A stretch of DNA of 51,034 bases. Origin: Spirochaetales bacterium. Its GTDB lineage: Bacteria; Spirochaetota; JAAYUW01. The DNA is taken from positions 1 through 51,034 of the forward strand of contig JAAZOT010000029.1 in assembly GCA_012797605.1 (NCBI GenBank), read 5' to 3'. Shown piece after piece: positions 26,036-29,018 of the stretch (positions within the stretch are counted from its first letter, which is position 1; the number at the start of each line of letters is the position of its first letter). The position numbers were made by a program, and so were the translations under genes. Below the pieces are notes generated by a model, which was not told the origin of the DNA, ran no database searches, and worked only from the letters and a program-made list of their open reading frames with translations.

Positions 26036-26044
26036 GAGTTCTTG

Positions 26045-26662
26045 ATGGAAATTAAAAGATTCATAGTTGGACCACTTAATACTAATTGTTACCATGTTTT
26101 TATAGATAACCAATCTATTTTAATAGATCCTGGATTTGAAGATGAAGAGCTTTTAAGTTTTTTAAATGGTAAAAAGATAGATTACATAATATTTACTCAT
26201 TATCATATAGATCATATACTTGGATATCACAATATAAAAAAAGTAATTCTGGAAGGTGCTAAAACTATTATTCATAAGAATGATTATGATTTTTTAAATG
26301 ACCCCATGATTAATGGAGCTGGTTTTATAGGTTTTGATTTTGAAAAAATTGAAGATGTAACCTTTTTTGATGGGGAAGAATACGAGTTATTTTCTGGTTG
26401 TAAGCTGATTCATACGCCGGGACATACACCAGGTTCTATAGTTGTCTATTTTGAAAAAGAACAAATTATGTTTTCTGGAGATACAATTTTTGCAAATGGA
26501 ATAGGAAGAACCGATCTACCTGGAGCAGATGCAAAAAAAATGATTTCTTCAATACGAAAGTTACTTCAATATCCTTCTGAAACTAAAATATATCCCGGCC
26601 ATGAAGAGTCTACAACTTTGGGGAAAGAGAGATATTCTCTATATCATTATTGTGAAATTTGA
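26045..26662 (+). CDS. Metallo-beta-lactamase-fold hydrolase (glyoxalase II-like)
   Basis: 205 residues from ATG 26045. AGGAG 6 nt upstream overlaps the stop of the preceding gene; the TTG at 26042 is too close to it. All zinc-site motifs of the glyoxalase II/YcbL group are present: H52-x-H54-x-D56-H57, HTPGHTPGS, SGDTIF and YPGHE. The length is that of YcbL-type single-domain hydrolases, which lack the C-terminal substrate domain of true glyoxalase II. The likely reaction is hydrolysis of a thioester such as S-lactoylglutathione or similar; the substrate is unsure. Probably co-transcribed with the glycosyltransferase before it (9 nt apart). Confidence 0.88.
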   Translation: MEIKRFIVGPLNTNCYHVFIDNQSILIDPGFEDEELLSFLNGKKIDYIIFTHYHIDHILGYHNIKKVILEGAKTIIHKNDYDFLNDPMINGAGFIGFDFEKIEDVTFFDGEEYELFSGCKLIHTPGHTPGSIVVYFEKEQIMFSGDTIFANGIGRTDLPGADAKKMISSIRKLLQYPSETKIYPGHEESTTLGKERYSLYHYCEI

Positions 26663-26668
26663 TGTTTT

Positions 26669-27181
26669 CTATCCTTCCTGTTCTATCTCTTCTTCTAATG
26701 CACCAAACAAAGTCGCTATGTCGCTATTTGCTGATTTTAACCTTTCGGTAAGTTTTTTCGCTACCGCTTTTAAGATAAGGTAGCCTATTCGAAAATTATT
26801 GTTTGCAAGATTTTCAAAACTAGAAGATTCAAGAACAAGAGTTACAACATCTGAAACTGCTCTAATTGTTGCAGTTCTTGCATCTTTATCTATAAGAGCC
26901 ATCTCTCCAAAGAAAGCATTTCCTTCAGCATCTATTTGAGCAACTGCATATTGTTCTTTTGCAAAAGTTTCCTTTAATACCTTAACTGTACCTTTATGAA
27001 GAATGTAAAGGCAATCACCAATTTCTCCTTCTTTAATTATTATTTCATCTTTTGAAAATTCTAAGGCATAAGTTGCTTCCGCAATTAATTCAAGTTCTTC
27101 AAGGTTTAAATTTTGAAAAAGAATTACCTTTGAAAGTTTTTCTTTCTTTTCTTCTATCGATATTTCAATTTTTTTCATCAT
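26669..27181 (-). CDS. Stand-alone cyclic-nucleotide-binding domain protein
   Basis: 171 residues from ATG 27181 (ATG 27178 or GTG 27187 also possible; GGGGTGGG is just upstream). One CNBD (about 15-125): the phosphate-binding cassette FGEMALI (91-97) with R102-T103-A104 closing it, so the residues that hold the cyclic phosphate are intact. The remainder is a helix (AVAKKLTERLKSANSDIATL) and an acidic tail. There is no helix-turn-helix, so this is not a CRP-type regulator. It begins 12 nt after the K+ channel gene, which suggests that it is the cyclic-nucleotide-sensing partner of that channel. Confidence 0.85.
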   Translation of the reverse strand: MMKKIEISIEEKKEKLSKVILFQNLNLEELELIAEATYALEFSKDEIIIKEGEIGDCLYILHKGTVKVLKETFAKEQYAVAQIDAEGNAFFGEMALIDKDARTATIRAVSDVVTLVLESSSFENLANNNFRIGYLILKAVAKKLTERLKSANSDIATLFGALEEEIEQEG

Positions 27182-27193
27182 TCCCACCCCAAA

Positions 27194-28393
27194 TTATACT
27201 ACTTCTTTCAAGTTATCTTTAATAGTATTTTTTGTTATATATAATATTGCTGAATCTTCTTTTATTATATAGTCAAATGGAGGGTTAAAATATGGGTCAT
27301 TTGCCCTTAAGCTTTTTATCCTTTTCAAATTTTTGACAAGTTTTTCCATATTTGGGGTCTTTTGAGCTTCTTTCAACGCTTTTTTCTTCCTCAAAAAGAC
27401 ATTGCCAGCATTTTCTATAATACCTATAGGCAGTAAATTCTTCCTTATGTAATCATCAAATAAATCCTTATAAGTTTTACCTATAAATTTATCACTTATA
27501 GCTTCAGATTTGAGCTGACTTCCTTTTGAAGGATTTATTAACTCATCAAATACCTGAGAAAATCCTTTTTTTAATGATGCTTGGGAAATTAGTAGATGTG
27601 TTGTATATTTTGAAAGTATTATTTCATCACAATATGCCTTTCTTAATGATGTTTCGAATTTTGTATCATATATTTCAACACATGTATAGATTTCTTTATT
27701 CAATGATTTTGCTATCAAAACAGTCATGACATTTTTCGAATCAATTTCACTTTGAGAATACCTTCCAGTATCATCTGCAAGAACTAAAAGTTCTGAAGCT
27801 GTCTCAATCGATGCCTTTTTTAGTATATTTTCATCGAAATAGTCACCATGAATATAATTTATTCCTCTAAATTCTGTTTCTGAAAGTATTCCTTGAATTG
27901 TCTCTGGATTTTCATTGTTTATCATTACTATATCTGAAGGTTCAAGTTCTGAATTAATAGTCAAAATTTGTTTAAGTAAACTAATAAAATCAGTTTTCCA
28001 TCCACAGATAATAAAATGATTCTTTATATTTTTCACACCTGCTACTCCTCTTTGTTTTCTTAACTGTATATCTACAAGTATAGATGCAAATGTACCTGTA
28101 AATAGCGATATTGTTAATAATCCAGAAAAAATCCCTATCATTATGACTATTTTTCCAGCTATCGTTTTAGCTGTTATATCTCCATAGCCAGTCGATGTTA
28201 TTGATATTACTATATAATAAATCGAATCAAAAAAATTTTTGATTCCTTCATTCATCCTTGCTTCAATTATGAAAATTACTATGGAAAAGAAGATAATAAA
28301 AGATATCAGTAAAAGAGCAATCTGTATAAACTGTTTTCCAAAAAATCTTTTTATTTTATTTAATAGATTAAAAAAACCTTTTTTCTTTCTCAT
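27194..28393 (-). CDS. Two-TM potassium channel with RCK (TrkA-N/C) domains
   Basis: 399 residues from ATG 28393. TM1 spans about 21-45, the pore helix and selectivity filter follow with T68-G69-Y70-G71-D72 (TSTGYGD), and TM2 lies at about 78-106. Next come a TrkA-N-like Rossmann domain (about 125-260, HFIICGW in place of a full GxGxxG) and a TrkA-C-like region (about 275-390). This is the MthK/KtrAB-like ligand-gated K+ channel layout. The frame stays open upstream to 28588 and ATG 28495 is an alternative, but that overlaps the divergent gene and adds a basic segment that no family member needs. The next gene downstream is a separate cyclic-nucleotide-binding protein. Confidence 0.87.
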   Translation of the reverse strand: MRKKKGFFNLLNKIKRFFGKQFIQIALLLISFIIFFSIVIFIIEARMNEGIKNFFDSIYYIVISITSTGYGDITAKTIAGKIVIMIGIFSGLLTISLFTGTFASILVDIQLRKQRGVAGVKNIKNHFIICGWKTDFISLLKQILTINSELEPSDIVMINNENPETIQGILSETEFRGINYIHGDYFDENILKKASIETASELLVLADDTGRYSQSEIDSKNVMTVLIAKSLNKEIYTCVEIYDTKFETSLRKAYCDEIILSKYTTHLLISQASLKKGFSQVFDELINPSKGSQLKSEAISDKFIGKTYKDLFDDYIRKNLLPIGIIENAGNVFLRKKKALKEAQKTPNMEKLVKNLKRIKSLRANDPYFNPPFDYIIKEDSAILYITKNTIKDNLKEVV

Positions 28394-28493: not shown

Positions 28494-29018
28494 ATGAAAA
28501 ATAAAAAAGATAGAATCTTTTTTAAAAATTTTTTTTTGATTTTGTTACTTTTTTTAAGTATTGCAACCATATTAAAAATCGAGCTCAAAGCTCAATCTTT
28601 TTCTTTGTTCATAGATTTAAAACCAATTTTTCTTTCTTTAGATTCTGGTGGACCAGGAATAGGGTTAGGTTGGGAATATTATTTTAACAAAAAGTTTTCG
28701 ACTTTTGGAAAATTTGTCTATATGAATTTTTTAGATGTAGGTATATGGCTTATATATTATCTTCAAGGTTTTAGATTTTATTTTTGTAATTCTAACTTTG
28801 ATAAGTTTTTTTTTGGTTTATATGGAATAGTTTTATATGGCTCAGTTGAACAATCAGTTTCTTTAGTTTATGGATTTCAAATTGATATTGGATACAAATG
28901 GAGGATTGAAGGTTTTGAAAGATACTTTATAGAACCTCAAATAATATATATATATATAGTAGGTGAGCCACTGCTGTTTGGATTATCAATGGGTTTAAAT
29001 ATAGGTATAATCTTTTAA
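28494..29018 (+). CDS. Small exported protein, outer-membrane-beta-barrel-like
   Basis: 174 residues. Signal peptide: basic start, hydrophobic core to about 27, then LKAQS as the likely cleavage site (~33). The mature chain alternates hydrophobic and polar residues with many aromatic and glycine residues (GPGIGLGWEYYF, GKFVYMNFLDVGIWL) and ends in Ile-Ile-Phe, a C-terminal Phe typical of outer-membrane barrels. At ~140 mature residues it could form an 8-strand barrel. AGAGGG precedes the ATG. It is divergent from the K+ channel, with about 100 nt between the two starts if the channel starts at 28393. Family not recognised. Confidence 0.7.
   Translation: MKNKKDRIFFKNFFLILLLFLSIATILKIELKAQSFSLFIDLKPIFLSLDSGGPGIGLGWEYYFNKKFSTFGKFVYMNFLDVGIWLIYYLQGFRFYFCNSNFDKFFFGLYGIVLYGSVEQSVSLVYGFQIDIGYKWRIEGFERYFIEPQIIYIYIVGEPLLFGLSMGLNIGIIF

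Follow-up and report, generated by a model that had tools for sequence, protein, structure and literature searches.

A two-transmembrane RCK potassium channel and a stand-alone cyclic-nucleotide-binding protein encoded as a conserved gene pair in Spirochaetota

The window, a 51,034-nt stretch of DNA from a Spirochaetales bacterium (contig JAAZOT010000029.1), carries on its minus strand a gene for a K+ channel with two transmembrane (TM) segments and a regulator of K+ conductance (RCK) domain and, immediately downstream of it, a gene for a protein consisting of a cyclic-nucleotide-binding domain (CNBD) and a short C-terminal extension. The features of the locus are as follows.

27194..28393, minus strand: K+ channel gene, 399 aa, start ATG at 28393; two TM segments plus a single RCK domain of Slo/MthK type whose C-lobe carries an insert
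28178..28198, minus strand: selectivity filter TSTGYGD, at residues 66-72, with GYGD unchanged throughout 25 aligned relatives
27296..27400, minus strand: RCK C-lobe insert VFLRKKKALKEAQKTPNMEKLVKNLKRIKSLRAND (residues about 332-366), class I; present in every paired channel and proposed as the CNBD docking element
27182..27193, minus strand: intergenic spacer of 12 nt; the two genes share a reading frame and are separated by one TAA
26669..27181, minus strand: stand-alone CNBD gene, about 170 aa, PF00027 alone
26864..26908, minus strand: phosphate-binding cassette GEMALIDKDARTATI, Glu and Arg present
26672..26743, minus strand: C-terminal tail RLKSANSDIATLFGALEEEIEQEG, class I motif NxDxxTLFxALxxEI, conserved among partners

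The likely start of the CNBD gene is the ATG at 27181, a choice that yields the 12-nt spacer; a GTG at 27187 is also listed. Both neighbouring genes lie on the plus strand, one converging on the pair (26042-26662) and the other diverging from it (28494-29018), so that in this genome the channel and CNBD genes constitute an isolated two-gene unit. An earlier note made from the sequence alone had described a two-TM TGYGD channel followed 12 nt on by a CNBD-only protein with an intact cassette, and the open reading frames, the Pfam matches and the Gly-Glu and Arg of the cassette all agree with that description. The same note gave the channel RCK domains in the plural; an RCK domain is indeed present, in the form of one per subunit bearing a C-lobe insert rather than a tandem.

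The channel matches the Pfam families Ion_trans_2 (4.7e-14), Slo-like_RCK (2.3e-12) and TrkA_N (1.3e-11), the two RCK-type matches exceeding the cut-off, and in searches of the PDB its profile is closest to BK (4e-32) and MthK (1.2e-30). Like MthK and Slo/BK, it has a two-TM pore with a (T)xGYGD filter followed by RCK, and in both pore and N-lobe it has the hallmarks of an RCK-gated K+ channel. The Rossmann motif is FIICGWK, as in MthK, and does not conform to the GxGxxG of RCK domains of the NAD/ADP/ATP type. The Ca2+ ligands of MthK are D184, E210 and E212; in the alignment the first two positions are kept, as D207 and E240, and the E212 position is not, which leaves two of the three ligand positions and raises the possibility that the channel responds to a second signal as well. 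What sets it apart from MthK, GsuK and Slo/BK is the RCK C-lobe, where a hairpin carries a conserved insert of 35-45 residues relative to other RCK channels, and the pairing of its gene with that of a CNBD protein. GsuK, by comparison, senses ADP, NAD+ and Ca2+ in its own RCK domains (PMC3510474). Structure models built from a three-sequence input, for the channel alone and for a read-through fusion in which the TAA was read as Gly, reached a pLDDT of 38-40 and a pTM of 0.23-0.29 and were unusable.

In the CNBD protein, PF00027 (1e-19) is the only Pfam domain and is followed by about 35 residues; the window cassette, FFGEMALIDKDARTATIRA, retains both the Gly-Glu and the Arg. The profile of the partner family matches the CNBDs of SthK (3e-20) and MloK1 (2.5e-19) in the PDB, as well as the regulatory subunit of protein kinase A (PKA; 1e-38 to 1e-36).

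A search of 393 genomes of the phylum with the channel profile (A1) matched 136 at 1e-20, many of the weak matches being other RCK channels, and all open reading frames in the neighbourhoods of approximately 110 of the best channel matches were then searched with profiles of both proteins. Ninety-nine complete, non-redundant pairs were recovered from 97 genomes representing 50 genera and 28 families, and in every one of them (99/99) the CNBD gene follows the channel gene on the same strand. Most predicted gaps range from -32 to +42 nt, and many of the genes overlap. The flanking genes are not conserved, the 190 flanking open reading frames falling into 125 clusters of which the largest spans 6 loci. 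A fixed order and strand across 28 families, set against flanks that vary, shows that the adjacency is not due to chance. The earlier proposal that relatives should be searched for the same pair is thus answered by co-occurrence and adjacency across the phylum. It had also called for a search for fused versions, and no intact channel-CNBD fusion was detected among the 99 complete pairs or in the phylum neighbourhoods searched. Some channels lie within longer open frames, of 500-750 aa, that resembled fusions; these were rejected as N-terminal frame extensions, the CNBD being in another frame or gene.

In a reverse search, full-tailed CNBD proteins turned up either next to a channel or on contigs broken off at the channel (G052, G215 and G224), with the exception of G289. 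In that genome both genes are intact but unlinked, on different contigs and away from contig ends, and this is the only intact exception. At one locus (L142, G293:C3) the channel and the CNBD gene have decayed together into broken fragments. A contig titled Brachyspira murdochii (L039, DYJT01000005.1) encodes a channel 85% identical to that of the window, in a genome that belongs to the window's genus, and probably represents a mislabelled metagenome-assembled genome. Beyond the phylum sample, a single-protein scan of contigs returned two genus mates only, a plasmid search yielded only insert-less channels of <32% identity, and a search of viral contigs gave essentially pore-only matches, none of which covered >60% of the query.

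The RCK inserts and the ends of the CNBD proteins each fall into two classes. In the 75 class I pairs the insert conforms to RKKEALxEAQKTPDISKLVxNLxxVK and the partner protein has the terminal motif NxDxxTLFxALVxEI; the 24 class II pairs combine an insert of the form LSxDDxLSDDxSAIDxFIKRKF with a partner whose end reads LKLTTALSIALS. Insert class and tail class agree in 99/99 pairs, with zero mismatches, and one genome (G033) holds a class I pair and a class II pair, each correctly matched. The agreement coincides with one deep split in the tree and hence counts as about one evolutionary event rather than many. Consistent with this, when covariation was assessed as mutual information, insert against tail was the top block over all 99 pairs, a result mostly explained by the two-class split; inside class I the signal is unexceptional, 445 of 5400 blocks being as high, and likewise inside class II.

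A tree built from 117 channels places all 99 paired channels together with six unpaired ones, apart (support 91, weak) from 12 outgroup channels, which have neither the insert nor a CNBD neighbour. Five of the six unpaired channels are tandem copies from one family that have lost the insert and have no CNBD of their own, and these form a single clade (support 99); the sixth is that of G289, which keeps the insert and has its CNBD partner elsewhere in the genome. Retention of the insert in paired channels and its loss in partnerless copies is what would be expected if the insert were a docking site. The tandem loci, all in family f18 (L106, L107, L109, L110 and L111, in G328, G220, G375, G289 and G214, respectively), each have the insert-less copy directly upstream of an insert-bearing channel. 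The CNBD gene follows the insert-bearing channel in four of the five and is located elsewhere in the genome for L110 (G289). The insert-less copies may form heteromers that offer fewer CNBD docking sites. At two further loci in two genomes, L081 and L082, two complete channel-CNBD pairs lie in tandem and both copies keep their CNBD, the first channel of L082 being frame-broken.

The cassette Glu is present in 95/99 partners and the Arg in 96/99. In three pairs of genus g19 (L019, L021 and L060) the cassette has been destroyed (FGKAALLGEDFHGSSV) with loss of both residues, and the gene pair, the tail and the insert are all kept, which indicates that binding of a cyclic nucleoside monophosphate (cNMP) is not universal in the family and that the partner also serves a function for which an intact cassette is not needed. 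At one further locus (L018, G006) a stretch of N at approximately 2797-2898, inside the CNBD gene, hides the cassette. Class III cyclase domains were found in 26/26 genomes checked, including six in the window genome. With the cassette mostly intact and cyclases at hand, signalling by cAMP or cGMP is plausible for most lineages.

It is proposed that the CNBD protein acts in trans as a dedicated regulatory subunit, docking on the RCK insert and making the channel responsive to cyclic nucleotides, a reading to which a probability of about two in three is assigned. The channel would form a tetramer with an RCK gating ring whose C-lobe bears the lineage-specific insert, and the separately encoded CNBD protein would dock on this insert by way of its short C-terminal tail. 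Once the CNBD had bound cAMP or cGMP, its C-helix and tail would move, altering the tension that the gating ring exerts on the pore, with either opening or closing as the possible outcome. From the gene pairing, the matched classes, the loss of the insert in partnerless copies and the integrity of the cassette in most lineages, all read directly from the genomes, we infer the physical contact and its location, the binding of cNMP and the effect on gating. The layout suggested at the outset, an RCK channel with a CNBD acting in trans, is therefore supported in part: the two genes co-occur, remain unfused and have features that track one another, and the formation of a complex, the binding of cNMP and a cNMP-dependent conductance are its predicted elements.

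The CNBD protein might alternatively be an obligate structural or assembly subunit for which cyclic nucleotides are not the main signal, much as channels of the KCNH/hERG type carry a CNBD homology domain that does not bind cNMP. The g19 partners, still paired and still equipped with tail and insert after losing the cassette Glu and Arg, are what such a role would predict, but about 96% of partners, across 28 families, otherwise retain the cassette, and cyclases are present; as a general account this seems rather unlikely. Operon partners need not form complexes, so the two proteins could also share a pathway without contact, the CNBD protein regulating, for example, another target in K+ or osmotic balance; that the RCK insert tracks the presence of the partner, and insert class the class of the tail, speaks against this and makes it distinctly improbable. 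CNBD proteins encoded beside their target genes are often regulators of the Crp/Fnr type. Control of channel gene transcription by a Crp-like regulator is nonetheless very hard to reconcile with the data. The Crp/Fnr reading was rejected because the C-terminal helix-turn-helix is absent and PF00027 is the only domain, the approximately 35 residues that follow the CNBD being too few to form one; moreover, the CNBD gene is the downstream member of the operon that it shares with the channel gene, and the class of its product's tail goes with the sequence class of the channel protein.

Taking the CNBD protein as a docked regulatory subunit, several known systems offer partial parallels. To our knowledge, pore and sensor share one polypeptide chain in the cyclic-nucleotide-modulated channels described so far, and in RCK channels it is the channel's own ring that senses ions or nucleotides. 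SthK and MloK1 likewise combine a K+ pore with a CNBD whose phosphate cassette has Glu and Arg intact, but they are six-TM channels with the CNBD in the pore chain, whereas here the CNBD protein is separate and the channel is of the RCK ring type. The arrangement in a single chain has been documented for both (PMC6093708). Separate encoding of a cytoplasmic part that senses ligand, apart from the part that conducts K+, is found in KtrAB (PMC4714889). In the spirochaete pairs, by contrast with KtrAB, RCK is fused to the channel and the CNBD is what is added in trans. The separate part of KtrAB is the RCK ring itself, which senses ATP/ADP. The PKA regulatory subunit is a separate CNBD protein that controls its partner in trans; it differs in that the partner is a kinase, each subunit has two CNBDs and the docking parts are unrelated.

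The channel-CNBD pair is real, strongly conserved and functionally coherent, and represents what is, as far as can be told, an undescribed form of RCK-gated K+ channel rather than a new kind of protein; no description of a CNBD acting in trans on an RCK channel was found in the literature searched, which consisted mainly of open-access papers. It is reasonably likely that the pairs make up a spirochaete-wide class of K+ channels with a separate CNBD subunit on a purpose-built RCK insert, two matched docking types, possible insert-less heteromers and one ligand-blind lineage. If so, subunit assembly could bring together the two great families of cytoplasmic sensors of K+ channels, the arrangement would be a bacterial parallel to auxiliary channel subunits, and the soluble, separable sensor would allow cNMP coupling to be added to or removed from a reconstituted channel at will. 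Some of the many cyclases and CNBD proteins that spirochaetes encode would gain a concrete role as well.

The window genome has CNBDs at 10 places, and at none of them is the CNBD joined to a channel; six of these CNBD proteins were scanned for domains. Its second stand-alone CNBD protein (L002:1402-1851, G000:C99; 150 aa) is partner-like in sequence without the tail, and has relatives in genus mates. The same genome also encodes a 397-aa histidine kinase of CNBD type, with CNBD, HisKA and HATPase_c domains (L007:1405-2595, G000:C19), and a CNBD-TPR protein (L001:445-2124, G000:C34) with a Crp-like protein directly after it.
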